Shown: positions 1 through 4,575 of the stretch, piece by piece | Numbering within the stretch: position 1 is the stretch's first letter | Layout: every line of letters begins with the position of its first letter | Assembly (NCBI GenBank): GCA_020720045.1 | Contig: DYPH01000051.1 | Coordinates: forward strand, 1-38,102 | Origin: Sorangium cellulosum | GTDB taxonomy: Bacteria > Myxococcota_A > Polyangia > Polyangiales > Polyangiaceae | Direction: 5' to 3' | DNA: 38,102 nucleotides | Made by a program: the position numbers and the translations under genes | Notes under the pieces: model-generated | Database searches by the model: none | Told to the model about the DNA's origin: nothing | The model's input: only the letters and a program-made list of their open reading frames with translations

Positions 1-2
1 AT

Positions 3-734
3 GCCACGATCGCGGGCGTCGAAGCGCTCACCCGCCACGGCGTGAAGGTGTGCGGGTGCATCGTGGTGACGCGCAAGAACGCCCACTACGTCGGCGCGAC
101 CCTCGAAAAGTTCGCGAGCCTCGGCGTACGCGACATCGCCCTCTCCCGCTTCTCACCGGCCGGCTACGCGGCCACGCACACCGCCGAACTCCTCCCCTCG
201 CGGAGCGACCTCCTCGACGCCCTCCGTCAGGCCCACACCTTCGCCGACGGCATGCGGATCCAGGTGACGATGCCGATCCCCCCGTGCGTGATCGACACCA
301 AAGAGTTCCCCAAGATCGCCTTTTCGAGCTGCCCGATCGGCACGGAAGCCCAGGAATTTGCTCTTGGAACCGACGGCAAGCTGCGTAACTGCACCCTGCA
401 TGCAACGACCCTCGGCGACGGACACACCGACAACTTCGCCGCCATGGTGACCAGCCCGAAGGTGGCCCAGTACCGGGACGTCACGCCCGAGTTCTGTGCG
501 CCGTGTCCGATGCGTGCATCCTGCATCGGTGGGTGTGGAGCCGCCGCCGCCGCCGCCGCGACCGACGACCGCCCGTCGGAATTTGCCGGCTTGGATCCGT
601 TCGTGGCCCAGCACGTCGACGATGCGCTCGCAGCCCGCTTGGCCGCGGCGCGGAACGGAGCCCCCTACGTGCCGCTCGGGCGCGCGAGACGGCGCGGTGA
701 ACTGCCGGTCCTTCCGACGACGGGGGGCAAATGA
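3..734 (+). CDS. Radical SAM protein with SPASM domain, C-terminal part
   Basis: The frame is open from base 3 to the stop at 732-734, so the start and the CxxxCxxC radical SAM cluster lie outside the window; about 243 residues are visible. The first part (..TRHGVKVCGCIVVTRKN..) fits the end of a radical SAM barrel. The second part carries a SPASM-type pattern: Cys-x14-Gly-x4-Cys (codons at 331 and 390), then Cys-x2-Cys-x5-Cys-x3-Cys (about 495-537). SPASM domains bind auxiliary Fe-S clusters in enzymes that modify peptides or proteins. The usual seventh, downstream Cys is absent; an Ala/Asp-rich tail follows instead. The stop overlaps the next gene's start (ATGA, 4 nt), which implies translational coupling to the repeat peptide, its likely substrate. 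The function is inferred from the motif and context. Confidence 0.85.
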   Translation, partial: ATIAGVEALTRHGVKVCGCIVVTRKNAHYVGATLEKFASLGVRDIALSRFSPAGYAATHTAELLPSRSDLLDALRQAHTFADGMRIQVTMPIPPCVIDTKEFPKIAFSSCPIGTEAQEFALGTDGKLRNCTLHATTLGDGHTDNFAAMVTSPKVAQYRDVTPEFCAPCPMRASCIGGCGAAAAAAATDDRPSEFAGLDPFVAQHVDDALAARLAAARNGAPYVPLGRARRRGELPVLPTTGGK

Positions 735-1090
735 GTACCCACGACGACGACCGCGCGGCCGTCCTGCGGCGACGGGCCCTCTTGGTCGCTTCCGCGCTTG
801 CCGGCCTCACCGCCGATGGGTGCCGGGAAAATCCGCCTCCGCAGCCGTGCCTCTCCCAGGTGGCAACGCCGCAAGACGCTGGGGAAACGGTAACGATCCC
901 CATGCCTTGCCTCACTCCACTGCCAAATCCAGACGCCGGGGAGCCGACACCACCGCCGATCGCCGACGAGCCCGATGGGGGCCCTCCGCCGCAACCGTGC
1001 CTCTCGCCGCCACCGCCGCACCCGTGCTTGTCGATTGCGCCGCCCAAGCCGCCGCCGCACCCGTGCTTGTCGCCGGTGCCCAGAAAATAG
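731..1090 (+). CDS. PxPCLS-repeat peptide 1, putative modified-peptide precursor
   Basis: This is a 119-residue protein that I do not recognise as a named family. The start overlaps the upstream radical SAM gene by 4 nt. Residues 1-31 form a charged start (MSTHDDDR), an RRR motif and a hydrophobic stretch ending at Cys31, like a Tat or lipoprotein signal, although the lipobox (ADGC) is poor. After it come five copies of a P-x-P-C-L-S/T motif with Cys at 40, 60, 90, 99 and 112, set in Pro-rich linkers. Asp-Ala-Gly or Asp-Gly-Gly occurs at residues 49-51, 68-70 and 82-84. Leader residues 6-23 match the peptide at 4255-4575 in register. Flanking genes encode two radical SAM proteins, so a RiPP-like precursor is the best inference. 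A plain Pro-rich lipoprotein remains possible. Confidence 0.8.
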   Translation: MSTHDDDRAAVLRRRALLVASALAGLTADGCRENPPPQPCLSQVATPQDAGETVTIPMPCLTPLPNPDAGEPTPPPIADEPDGGPPPQPCLSPPPPHPCLSIAPPKPPPHPCLSPVPRK

Positions 1091-1103
1091 GAACGCACCA
1101 CCG

Positions 1104-3434
1104 ATGAACCAGGTCTCGCTCCTGCTGGTATGGCCGGGGACCCACGGCGCGGCGGCGGGGAACTTTGGAGTACCCCAGCTCGTCGGCTTGGCGACCTATG
1201 TTCGTGGAAAAACAGGCGCTTCCGTCGCGGTACGCGATCTAGGCGCTGAGCGGGCCCGCGGGACCGACATTTGGAAAATGCTCGCCGGTGACGAGAACGG
1301 CCAGCCGTGGAGCATCATCGGCCTCTCCTGCTACTCGAGCTACGACTACCTCCTCTGCCAGGCGATCGCCCTCCGAATTGCAGAGATTTCGCCGGAAACC
1401 ATCGTCGTCGCGGGCGGCTACCACCCGAGCGCGCGCCCCGGCGATTTCACCCCCGACGACGGCTTCGACGTATGTGTGATCGGTGAAGGGGAGAAGCCGC
1501 TCGTGACGATCGTCGAAGCGGTCGCCGGCGGCGTGCGCGAGTCGCTGCGGGGGCTCACCCTCGGCCCCGACGCCATTGCCCATTACGACGAGCTTCCGCT
1601 GTCCGATTGGTCGCTCCTCAATCGCTACAAATCGGTCGCACGGCGGATCGCAAGCCAGGCGGAGATCTACCTCTCCCGCGGCTGCCCCTTTGATTGTGCA
1701 TTCTGCATGGAACGGGCGAAGCGGGAGACGTCTTGGCGGGCCTTCGACGTCGAGCGTGCGCTCGAAGAGTTCAAGAATCTTAACGAATTTTTGAATCTCG
1801 AGCGATGGACCGTCTACGTAGCCGACGCCCTCTTCGGCATGCGGAAGCAGTGGCGACGGGCCTTCCTCGAAGGGCTCGCACGGAGCGACATCAAGACGGT
1901 TCGCACCTGGCTCCTGGTACGCGTCGACATGATCGACGACGAAGATCTCCAACTGTTTCAGGCGGCCAATTGTGCCCCTGGGTTCGGTCTGGAGTCGGGC
2001 GATCCGGTGCAGCTTGCACGGATTCGAAAGTCGGGTCGCCTCGACGACTACCTGGCGAAGATGGAGCACGTCTCCGCGCGCGCCCGCGAGCTCGATCTGC
2101 CGTGGGGGGCGAACGTCATCGTCGGCCATCCTGGCGAAACCGAAGCAAGCATGCGAACTTCGGCCGCTTACCTAAGGCGCCTCTTCCACGACCCTCGCGG
2201 CGTAACCGGCTTCCTTTCCGTAGACCCGTTCCGCCTCTACCCGGGCTCGCCCATCGACGACGATCGCGCCACCTGGCAGGCGCAGACCGGCTGTCGCTTC
2301 TACCGCCCCGAGTGGTGGAAGGACGGCGACCAGGAATTTCTCAGCGAGTGGGTCGATCCCTCCTACGACCTTGGCTACGACCGGCGCGTTGCGCTGACGA
2401 ACGAACTCTTCGCGCCGCTCGTGCAGGATGCACCGAAGTACTTTGCCTACCGAGGGACGGGCGGCGGCAGCGCCGAAGAATCACGCGCCTACTTCCGGCG
2501 GGCCCTCGACGGCCAGATCGAGCAGTTCGCGCCGCGGACGCGCATGCACTACCGTAAACTTCGGTATTCATGGGCCAAATACACCGGTCGTGGCGCAGAG
2601 GCCCGGCGCGCACTTCGCGACGACGCCGACTTCGCCCGCGACGCCGCCGAGCGGCGCGCTGCGACGATCGCCGGGCTCGACGTTGGGCCCTCGATCCTCG
2701 ACGCACTTCGGACGGTCCCCCGGGAGCGCTTCGTCCTGCTCGATGCCCTGGGCGACGCCCACAAGGACCAAGCGATCCCCCTCGACGCCAGCGGCGACAG
2801 CTCGGTGAGCGCCTTTCACGCCTACCTGCGGACGTTCACACTCGCTGGTATTTCCAAAGGAATGCACGTACTCGACCTCGGTGCCGGGACCGGCTACGGA
2901 ACCGCCCTCCTGGCGACGATCGTCGGCGAAACGGGGAGCGTCCTCGGCGTCGAACTCGACCCAAGCCACGCCGCCGTCGGGGCGGAAACGCTCGCCGCTT
3001 GGCCCCAGGCAACGCTCGTCGCCGGCGACGCATTTGTCTCCGCCCGGCGAGACGCCGGATCGGAGAACGCGTTTGTCTCCGCCCGGCGAGACGCCGGATC
3101 GGAGAACGCTTTCGCCAGCGAATTTGCAGGGGATGCACGCTGGGATGCCATTGTCGTCGGCTTCACGATCGCCGAGATCCCGGCCACGTGGCATCGGGTC
3201 GGCCGCGTCATCGTCGCGCCGGTCGCCGTCGCCGGGAGTACAACCGACGCGCGGCTTACGCGTGCAATCTGCACAGAAAAGGGCTTTGAGACGGAAGTCT
3301 TTGAGGAGGTGCGCTACGTGCGAACGCGGGCCGCCGCGGACGTCGGCGTGCCCGAGCGGACGTCGCCGAATTACGGCACGACTTCCGACACTTCCCTAGG
3401 AACGCGCAGGTCGCTACCGGTCGTCACCCGCTAG
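1104..3434 (+). CDS. B12-binding radical SAM enzyme fused to PCMT-like methyltransferase
   Basis: This is a 776-residue protein. I chose ATG 1104, 13 nt after the peptide gene, because the earlier in-frame sequence is only a shadow of that gene. Residues 1-150 resemble a cobalamin-binding domain (VAGGYHP.., VCVIGEGE). Residues 185-400 are a radical SAM barrel with CPFDCAFC, Cys194, Cys198 and Cys201 (CxxxCxxC). After a linker, the C-terminal third has the layout of protein-L-isoaspartate O-methyltransferase: VPRERF, then the SAM-binding loop VLDLGAGTGYGTALLA, then an acidic VELD strand. B12 radical SAM enzymes often methylate unactivated carbons. PCMT relatives in some RiPP clusters methylate Asp and lead to aspartimide or isoaspartate. 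A 39-bp tandem duplication lies in the methyltransferase part. The 3' end overlaps the convergent gene by 21 nt. Confidence 0.85.
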   Translation: MNQVSLLLVWPGTHGAAAGNFGVPQLVGLATYVRGKTGASVAVRDLGAERARGTDIWKMLAGDENGQPWSIIGLSCYSSYDYLLCQAIALRIAEISPETIVVAGGYHPSARPGDFTPDDGFDVCVIGEGEKPLVTIVEAVAGGVRESLRGLTLGPDAIAHYDELPLSDWSLLNRYKSVARRIASQAEIYLSRGCPFDCAFCMERAKRETSWRAFDVERALEEFKNLNEFLNLERWTVYVADALFGMRKQWRRAFLEGLARSDIKTVRTWLLVRVDMIDDEDLQLFQAANCAPGFGLESGDPVQLARIRKSGRLDDYLAKMEHVSARARELDLPWGANVIVGHPGETEASMRTSAAYLRRLFHDPRGVTGFLSVDPFRLYPGSPIDDDRATWQAQTGCRFYRPEWWKDGDQEFLSEWVDPSYDLGYDRRVALTNELFAPLVQDAPKYFAYRGTGGGSAEESRAYFRRALDGQIEQFAPRTRMHYRKLRYSWAKYTGRGAEARRALRDDADFARDAAERRAATIAGLDVGPSILDALRTVPRERFVLLDALGDAHKDQAIPLDASGDSSVSAFHAYLRTFTLAGISKGMHVLDLGAGTGYGTALLATIVGETGSVLGVELDPSHAAVGAETLAAWPQATLVAGDAFVSARRDAGSENAFVSARRDAGSENAFASEFAGDARWDAIVVGFTIAEIPATWHRVGRVIVAPVAVAGSTTDARLTRAICTEKGFETEVFEEVRYVRTRAAADVGVPERTSPNYGTTSDTSLGTRRSLPVVTR
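3030..3107 (+). repeat. In-frame 39-bp tandem duplication
   Basis: Two 39-bp units (3030-3068 and 3069-3107) differ only at the third base (gca versus gcg). Each encodes 13 residues beginning AFVSARRDAG, and a partial third start (AFAS) follows. The array lies within the methyltransferase domain, just after the GDAF strand, where a loop could accept extra length. It may be a recent slippage event with variable copy number between strains, or an assembly artefact. Confidence 0.95.
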
Positions 3435-4274
3435 GAGAGCAGCAACCCACGCGGCGCGCTCTTCGTCGCTGGTCGCGAGGCGATCGAGGGCCCACCGCCC
3501 AAGGAGGCGCTCGTAGTCGGCGAGGAGTCCGCGAGCCCCTGTCAAGGTGGGCCCGCCGTCTCTCGCGACGCCGCTTCCTGCAATTTCGCTGGCGGTCGCG
3601 AACGGACGGGCCGCGTAGCGGAGATACATGCAGAGTCCATCGATTGCGTCGCGTTCGGTCCGGGCCCACCGGGAAAACTCGGCGTTCGGCCGCCGCCGAA
3701 GTACTTCCTCGGCGGCAACGACGGCGCTCTCGTGGAGGTAGAGCGCGACCGTCGTTCCGATCGTCCCGTCGTGCCAGGGGGCTGGCGCGCCGACGACGAT
3801 GGAATCGCCCAGGACGCGCCCCCGCGGGCCGAGGGCATGACTCACCCAGAGCGGCGCACGCGCCCCCGGGACGGCGGCACGCGCAGCTTCGATGCGGGCA
3901 ATCGACGCCTCAGGGAGCGTCGTTGGAAGCGCCATCGCGAGGGGCTCGGCGACGATCCACGAGGTGGTGAGCAGCTCGACGACGATGGGACTTTCCGAAG
4001 CAATTTCATTCTCATCGGCGAGGAGGGCGTAGGGTTCCCGCTCGACGAGGAGTGGCAGGCGCTCGGGATGGCGCGCCGTCGCGAGAACCCGCGCGAGGAT
4101 CCCATCATCGGCACCGACAAACGCAGCAAGCGGCGGGGCCGCTTCCGCAAGCCACGCCGCATAACGTGCATCATACAGAGAACCGAAGGTCGTCGCCGGG
4201 CTCGCCGCGAGGAGGGCGAACAGGGCCGCTTCGCGGGGCGTCTCTGCGCGGGGATCAGCCGCCGTCGCCGCCAT
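3414..4274 (-). CDS. Unknown protein coupled to repeat peptide 2
   Basis: This is a 286-residue protein that I cannot place in a family. The start ATG at 4274-4272 lies 20 nt inside the end of the peptide 2 gene, so the two are probably translationally coupled. Longer upstream extensions only read through the peptide gene in another frame. The protein is Ala/Leu/Glu-rich and looks soluble, with no signal peptide or clear membrane segment. Its most distinctive stretch is WHDGTIGTTVALYLHE near residue 190, with clustered His and Glu that might bind a metal, but there is no HExxH motif. By context it may serve the peptide system as a maturation partner, peptidase or recognition protein. The 3' end overlaps the convergent B12 radical SAM gene by 21 nt. 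Confidence 0.75.
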   Translation of the reverse strand: MAATAADPRAETPREAALFALLAASPATTFGSLYDARYAAWLAEAAPPLAAFVGADDGILARVLATARHPERLPLLVEREPYALLADENEIASESPIVVELLTTSWIVAEPLAMALPTTLPEASIARIEAARAAVPGARAPLWVSHALGPRGRVLGDSIVVGAPAPWHDGTIGTTVALYLHESAVVAAEEVLRRRPNAEFSRWARTERDAIDGLCMYLRYAARPFATASEIAGSGVARDGGPTLTGARGLLADYERLLGRWALDRLATSDEERAAWVAALLAGDDR

Positions 4275-4575
4275 CCGAAATCGCAATGTCGAGGCAGGGT
4301 TGCGGGGCGGCGTCGCCAGCATCAATCGGGGCCGAAAGGCAGGGCTGGGGCGCGCCATCGGCGGCGGCATCGCGTGCGACCGGTGAGAGGCACGGTTGCG
4401 GGGCAGCGTCGGTGCCGGAATCGAGGGCGATGCTGAGGCAAGGTTGGGGCGCCGGGTCAGCATCGGACCCGCAGGCGATGGCGACGCTGGCGCTTGCCAT
4501 CGAAAGGAGCGCGGCCTTCACAAGGCGGCTCCGGCGGGCCAAAATCGCGGCTTTGTCGTCTTGATCGTCGTTCAT
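4255..4575 (-). CDS. PxPCLS-repeat peptide 2, putative modified-peptide precursor
   Basis: This is a 106-residue protein, paralogous in layout to the peptide at 731-1090. The leader carries DDKAAILARR at 6-15 and LVKAAL at 18-23, the same register as peptide 1, followed by a hydrophobic segment ending at Cys35. Four clean repeats follow, with Cys46, Cys62, Cys79 and Cys94 spaced 16, 17 and 15 residues apart. Each unit reads PQPCL-S/D, a few hydrophobic residues, then an Asp context (LDSG, RDAA, IDAG, SDGG). A Shine-Dalgarno-like GAGG lies 7 nt before the ATG. Asp-Gly, Asp-Ser and Asp-Ala are the kind of sites that PCMT-type enzymes act near, so each unit offers a Cys and an Asp target. The function is inferred from the repeats and the radical SAM neighbours. 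Confidence 0.8.
   Translation of the reverse strand: MNDDQDDKAAILARRSRLVKAALLSMASASVAIACGSDADPAPQPCLSIALDSGTDAAPQPCLSPVARDAAADGAPQPCLSAPIDAGDAAPQPCLDIAISDGGDGG

Follow-up and report, generated by a model that had tools for sequence, protein, structure and literature searches.

The window analysed here is contig DYPH01000051.1 of the Sorangium cellulosum assembly GCA_020720045.1, a stretch of 38,102 nucleotides (nt) read on the forward strand. Its first 4,575 nt carry five genes that we discuss as a candidate maturation system for exported proteins. Two of them encode radical S-adenosylmethionine (SAM) enzymes, namely a SPASM-type enzyme and a fusion of B12-binding, radical SAM and PCMT-type domains; two encode small repeat peptides, here called precursors A and B; and the fifth, gene X, encodes a conserved partner. 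The features are as follows.

3..734, plus strand: 3′ part of the gene for the SPASM radical SAM enzyme, 243 residues (TIGR04085, 28.2 bits against a cutoff of 27)
731..1090, plus strand: precursor A, 119 residues, with leader/signal (residues 1-31) and five PxPCL[ST] units
839..1072, plus strand: core of precursor A (residues 37-114), with PQPCLS, PMPCLT, PQPCLS, PHPCLS and PHPCLS
1104..3434, plus strand: fusion protein, with B12-binding domain (residues 70-136), radical SAM domain (residues 189-354, CPFDCAFC) and PCMT-type domain (from residue 529)
3414..4274, minus strand: gene X, 286 residues, unnamed conserved partner, from co-occurrence and alignments of orthologues
4255..4575, minus strand: precursor B, 106 residues, with leader/signal and four PQPCL[SD] units
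4288..4449, minus strand: core of precursor B (residues 43-96), with PQPCLS, PQPCLS, PQPCLS and PQPCLD

The window opens at a contig end (C68 in our numbering, G000:C68:1) within an assembly of 6.34 Mb in 357 contigs and therefore holds only the 3′ part of the SPASM gene, whose N-terminal 170 residues are encoded at the end of another contig (G000:C196:24461-24970). The stop of this gene overlaps the start of precursor A by 4 nt (ATGA at 731-734), 13 nt separate precursor A from the start of the fusion gene (1104), gene X and precursor B overlap by 20 nt on the minus strand, and gene X meets the 3′ end of the fusion gene (3434) tail to tail with an overlap of 21 nt. An earlier sequence-only reading had placed the five genes in this way, and only minor corrections were needed; its repeat pattern PxPCL[ST] describes every unit of precursor A, whereas precursor B contains one PQPCLD. 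The leader of precursor A matched our leader profile hidden Markov model (HMM) with an E-value of 4.7e-11, this sequence being itself part of the training set, and the relationship between precursors A and B (E = 4e-7) is independent of that model. Since the arrangement and the motifs recur across Myxococcota, the locus is not due to chance.

The enzyme pair and its co-inheritance with the leader

A full-length orthologue of the SPASM enzyme (L041:5294-6511, 405 residues) carries the CxxxCxxC motif, as CNQKCSYC (PF04055, E = 5e-24), and the auxiliary-cluster motif CX2CX5CX3C, both hallmarks of SPASM radical SAM enzymes; PF13186 scored above its cutoff in members of a sister clade, called the follower clade and described below. 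The three domains of the fusion protein exceeded their Pfam cutoffs (PF02310, 37.6 against 32.1 bits; PF04055, 47.4 against 29.5; PF01135, 60.5 against 20.3). Foldseek searches with parts of its AlphaFold2 model (predicted local distance difference test, pLDDT, of 84) matched AprD4, MgmA and TsrM for the first part and isoaspartate methyltransferases for the last (2yxe, TMt 0.83), with E-values of about 1e-13 to 1e-14. As these relatives include AprD4, a dehydratase and not a methylase, the B12 domain alone does not fix the reaction of the fusion protein. Neither enzyme reached the cutoff of a curated NCBIfam equivalog, the SPASM enzyme falling far short (best 98 bits versus 400), and among the families listed, none of the SPASM maturase equivalogs (sactipeptide, PqqE, mycofactocin, WgkB, others) was at cutoff. 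TIGR04133 ('rSAM_w_lipo') was rejected as the family of the follower-clade SPASM enzymes, with 59 bits against a cutoff of 425.

Within the PCMT domain of the window's fusion gene, positions 3037-3105 hold, in frame, two tandem 39-nt elements with a palindromic core (TCTCCGCCCGGCGAGACGCCGGATCGGAGA). This insertion is missing from the 19 homologues aligned, pLDDT falls below 50 there, and the translated repeat stretch FVSARRDAGSEN matches about ten other sites in the same genome; by these sequence features, the element is classified as a dispersed in-frame repeat.

Searching GTDB genomes with the fusion protein returned 22 loci, the named groups being Myxococcota or, in older usage, Deltaproteobacteria, and in all 22, as in the window, the SPASM gene lies directly upstream. 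In a sample of 284 genomes drawn from the phylum, 31 had the fusion, some of them outside the window's class. Where a genome had both enzymes, the two genes lay at most 3 kb apart on one strand in 41 of 45 cases. SPASM genes apart from the fusion were seen in a few genomes: G015 (C2:78252-79304 and C2:97958-99844), G024, G045 and G261; in G045, gene X adjoins the SPASM gene instead (C29).

To describe co-occurrence we used 318 genomes of the window's class, with the leader called at E<1e-5 and thresholds set by us. The leader was found in 49 of them. Leader and SPASM enzyme were shared by 47 genomes, each occurred alone in 2, and 267 had neither (Fisher p = 3e-51); fusion and leader were shared by 45, with 9 genomes having the fusion alone and 4 the leader alone; and gene X and leader were shared by 44, with 4 and 5 alone. 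Contrasts within genera agree (G255 with and G028 without both; G023 with and G246 without both). Genome comparison thus bears out the earlier suggestion that the five genes form one system, as the sets of genomes with leader, SPASM enzyme, fusion and gene X almost coincide. Leaders without a fusion were seen in G029, where a SPASM gene lies beside the leader on a small contig, in G159 and G161, which are only 65% and 71% complete, and in G309, to which we return below. The sequence-only reading would have been at odds with repeat peptides occurring widely without a radical SAM neighbour; such a neighbour is indeed often missing, but only 2 of the 269 genomes lacking a strong SPASM match have the leader.

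Dispersed substrates, probably exchangeable tags and gene X

Precursors at most loci share the leader consensus DRxAILARRARFVAxALAG...C. The RR pair is invariant in 26 of 26 leaders, and the hydrophobic pair lies one residue beyond its position in the twin-arginine translocation motif [ST]RRxFLK. On inspection, a Cys closes the hydrophobic stretch, mostly after A/G/S, and leader proteins are often probable lipoproteins; several large ones have a signal region that lacks the terminal Cys. By this inspection the leaders look like signal peptides, which supports the expectation that the products are exported.

Comparison of genomes also revealed that the leader proteins are dispersed. Five genomes (G249, in 5 contigs, G021, G013, G310 and G197) yielded 7-11 leader matches apiece (E<=0.01), almost all of them at a distance from the enzymes, and none of the ten in G249 is at the enzyme locus. 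Eight loci have no adjacent precursor (L042, L043, L048, L052, L055, L057, L059, L060); for L042, taken as G197, there are nine leader matches elsewhere in the genome. Of the local RiPP-like locus (RiPP, ribosomally synthesized and post-translationally modified peptide) proposed earlier, the single maturation system stands, but its substrates are dispersed and the system is trans-acting; purely local precursors are ruled out by the scattered leader proteins. We read about 35 scattered leader regions, picked through the leader alone. At one end of their range are repeat peptides some 90-160 residues long, at the other multi-domain proteins that carry one or two units within a linker; Pfam searches on ten leader proteins found OmpA (PF00691) in three and PEGA (PF08308) in one. 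No convincing recurrent partner gene was found beside the scattered substrates.

The tag is closely linked to the core. The 102 distinct leader proteins contain 359 units with the consensus P-Q-P-C-L-S-[PVI]-[PA], Pro occurring at -3 in 85% and at -1 in 71%, and P/V/A at -1 in 96%. Across 87 small leader proteins, Leu follows the Cys residues behind the signal in 294 of 301 cases (98%), compared with 2% Leu among other residues. At loci without a fusion gene, CL is present in 58 of 58 leader proteins and the strict motif [PAS]x[PVAI]CL in 57 of 58 distinct proteins; the background for the strict motif is 210 of 7988 other open reading frames (ORFs) of at least 100 codons, non-coding frames included (2.6%).

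A sister clade of fusions, with about 33-41% identity, occurs in the same and other lineages, again beside a SPASM gene. Its precursors are often in tandem and have a hydrophobic signal at the N-terminus that lacks the RR motif, linkers rich in Thr/Ser/Gly or Asp/Pro, units such as GPCL[SDE]xPP, and a common C-terminal follower of about RxAVLxRLLxAGVLPxDVxARLR. Nine follower matches (E<1e-4) lie away from the enzymes; eight of them are ORFs that contain CL one or more times, and the other is a fragment of 50 residues. In L280, L283 and L284, on inspection, the follower comes after a hydrophobic segment with a basic tail and is therefore probably in the cytoplasm; their Cys/hydrophobic/basic C-terminal segment presumably resembles a MYXO-CTERM-like sorting signal. 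In a maximum-likelihood tree of 44 fusions the two tag types split with 100/100 support, the label being taken from enzyme similarity at loci without an adjacent precursor (e.g., L042, L043, L048, L052, L055, L059, L060, L246 and L247, and also L244, L297 and L298). The tree thus contains two enzyme clades, and at every locus with a visible precursor the tag fits the clade. Because the sister clade has PCL cores with another signal and a follower, it is very likely that the core is modified at Cys-Leu and that one tag can replace another.

The sequence-only reading had brought in PCMT-like enzymes as modifiers of Asp. Action of the PCMT domain on a core Asp is not supported, as Asp is present in the flank from -4 to +6 in only 110 of 359 units (Asp or Glu in about half) and many linkers of the sister clade are rich in Thr/Ser/Gly. 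An obligatory Asp target was rejected, there being no conserved core Asp.

Of 47 leader-clade genomes, 44 have gene X, and all seven follower-only genomes lack it; outside the class, it again stands at loci of the leader type (L286, L296). In 43 genomes compared, it adjoins the fusion in 23, on the opposite strand every time (23/23), and lies further off or on another contig in 20. As gene X partitions with the leader-type tag only, the most likely function of its product is to bind the leader, to shield it or to bring in the substrate. Neither Pfam and NCBIfam nor a PDB sequence profile gave a usable match for gene X. The AlphaFold2 model of an orthologue (L047, pLDDT 95.9) is mostly helical with a small sheet; Foldseek found no match in the PDB with E below 1, which is not proof of a new fold. 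The first rows of a VIA-align comparison were an alpha-ketoglutarate HExxH oxygenase domain and zinc-protease folds, the best one (8s5f; Z 6.1, root-mean-square deviation 5.6, 158 residues aligned) being within the range of common arrangements. This row points to the alpha-ketoglutarate HExxH peptide beta-hydroxylases (ChlB type), as a lead only, since gene X has HExxV: HE(x)xV occurs in most of 33 sequences, and the second His of HExxH is not conserved. Invariant residues, which include D53, R178, H206, E207 and E222 (L047 numbering), could serve catalysis.

Proposed system and alternative explanations

Taken together, the comparisons make it highly probable that the locus encodes a maturation system in which two enzymes act in trans on proteins destined for export. 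In the cytoplasm, the SPASM enzyme and the fusion would act on tagged proteins, the tag being an N-terminal signal peptide composed of an acidic stretch and xxILARRxRFVxxALxG...(C), and would modify the Cys-Leu of each (P)xPCL(S) unit, of which there are one or many per chain. Export of the modified protein would follow, in many cases probably as a lipoprotein. The enzyme pair of the sister clade would rely on the C-terminal follower in place of the signal-peptide tag. Co-inheritance, the link between tag and core, the near-invariant Cys-Leu and the scattering of the substrates follow directly from the comparisons; we infer that modification precedes export and that Cys-Leu is the modified site, as we do for the part played by gene X. 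As in RiPPs, a conserved tag is combined with a variable core and co-inherited with the modifying enzymes. A role in the cell envelope is a natural guess. For the chemistry we can offer only a working scheme, in which we have low confidence: the SPASM enzyme might turn Cys into a thioether or an oxidised form, a nearby carbon (Leu/Pro) might be methylated by the B12 enzyme, and the PCMT domain might add an O- or S-methyl group.

Several observations weigh against this proposal. The Fisher p-values are inflated, as shared ancestry is ignored. The leader HMM was trained on proteins picked by PCL, which makes the motif statistics circular for adjacent precursors, though not for the scattered leader proteins. 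Genome G309, which is 98% complete, has nine leader matches at E<=0.01 (L171-L175, L249) and no fusion, nor was a SPASM enzyme or gene X found at the thresholds used; several of its leader proteins bear PCL and are of the OmpA or TPR type. Finally, a handful of other genomes break one of the pairs, several of them being fragmented or incomplete.

Precursor genes beside two radical SAM genes, their multi-core build and the patchy distribution would also suit a classical RiPP natural product, with local precursors modified, cleaved and released as diffusible bioactive peptides and the scattered ones being duplicated or decayed. This is unlikely, however, because several genomes have more scattered substrates than local ones, some enzyme loci are without any (as in G249), and some substrates are multi-domain proteins with OmpA or PEGA; in addition, the gene clusters shared between loci, not all of them named, included no conspicuous protease or transporter family. 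Still further from our expectation, and very improbable, is that Cys-Leu is not modified at all, the leader being an ordinary signal peptide, the PCL repeats reflecting the composition of Pro-rich linkers, and the enzymes doing something else. Many envelope proteins of myxobacteria do have export signals and linkers rich in Pro/Asp, but such an explanation fits poorly with a leader nearly missing from enzyme-less genomes, with the motif in 57 of 58 proteins against 2.6%, and with Cys-Leu kept in two clades whose tags and linkers are unrelated.

Two other explanations retain the maturation system and add a role. In one, the modified and exported Cys-Leu units serve as ligands for a metal such as copper, analogous to bufferins, which likewise have a signal peptide as leader, several Cys, and some lipoprotein signals and fusions (PMC12452194); yet the six window genes scanned gave no match to DUF2063, DoxX or the multinuclear non-heme iron-dependent oxidative enzymes (MNIO), scattered substrates have no recurrent partner gene, and each unit holds one Cys without nearby His or Cys, so that we find metal handling quite improbable. 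In the other, the modified Cys-Leu is a covalent link to peptidoglycan, polysaccharide or another protein at the cell surface. The units do lie in flexible linkers of envelope proteins, including those with OmpA domains or TPR/PEGA, and in some follower proteins a hydrophobic segment plus basic tail forms the C-terminus; as no recurrent attachment ligase or transferase was found and the argument is positional only, surface attachment is an improbable role.

Relation to known systems

The closest parallel to the proposed system is provided by bufferins and oxazolins, MNIO-modified RiPPs in which a general secretory (Sec) signal peptide acts as leader and Cys is modified before export; for bufferins, a partner protein has been suggested to mask the signal peptide, and some lipoprotein and multi-domain forms exist (PMC12452194). 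The signal peptide in the leader's place, the idea of a partner, and the multi-domain and probable lipoprotein forms are common to both, as Cys modification before export would be. In contrast to the MNIO (DUF692) enzymes there, the system here has a radical SAM pair, another partner, xPCL repeats, many dispersed substrates and an alternative clade with a C-terminal follower. Similarly, the maturases of sactipeptides and ranthipeptides, WgkB and PqqE share radical SAM and SPASM domains, a Cys-containing substrate and leader dependence, whereas here the SPASM enzyme is paired with a B12-radical SAM/PCMT fusion and the substrates are exported proteins. The predicted folds of the fusion match AprD4, MgmA and TsrM on the one hand and protein isoaspartate methyltransferase on the other, both here in one chain, an arrangement that is conserved through the phylum beside a SPASM gene. 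TIGR04133, by its family name, ties a SPASM enzyme to a lipoprotein, and the follower-clade enzyme is not a member.

No curated family in Pfam or NCBIfam names the precursors or gene X, and no description of the enzyme-precursor combination was found in the open-licence literature, in line with the sequence-only reading, which had not recognised it as a described class. The radical SAM pair with PCL substrates is apparently undescribed. Whether it amounts to a new Myxococcota maturation class, in which a radical SAM pair acts on Cys-Leu in dispersed envelope proteins, repeat peptides and OmpA-domain proteins alike, the tag has been swapped between a signal peptide used with gene X and a C-terminal follower used without it, and the modification is new to chemistry, we rate as close to an even chance, with slightly less in favour.

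Leader-directed radical SAM chemistry usually operates in small clusters that make one peptide. The system described here rather resembles a protein modification whose many targets are scattered and marked by a readable code of tag plus PCL, and it suggests a candidate role for the unnamed, highly conserved gene X family. The two branches also constitute a natural experiment, with one RiPP-type enzyme pair using a leader in one and a follower in the other. As several Myxococcota lineages and one cultured strain carry the system, its chemistry and role are directly testable. The genome paper of the cultured Paraliomyxa miuraensis reports 17 clusters, with no radical SAM type among those named in its text (PMC9960870). 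In G170, which we take to be this organism, the leader-type and follower-type systems occur together (L245, L050).

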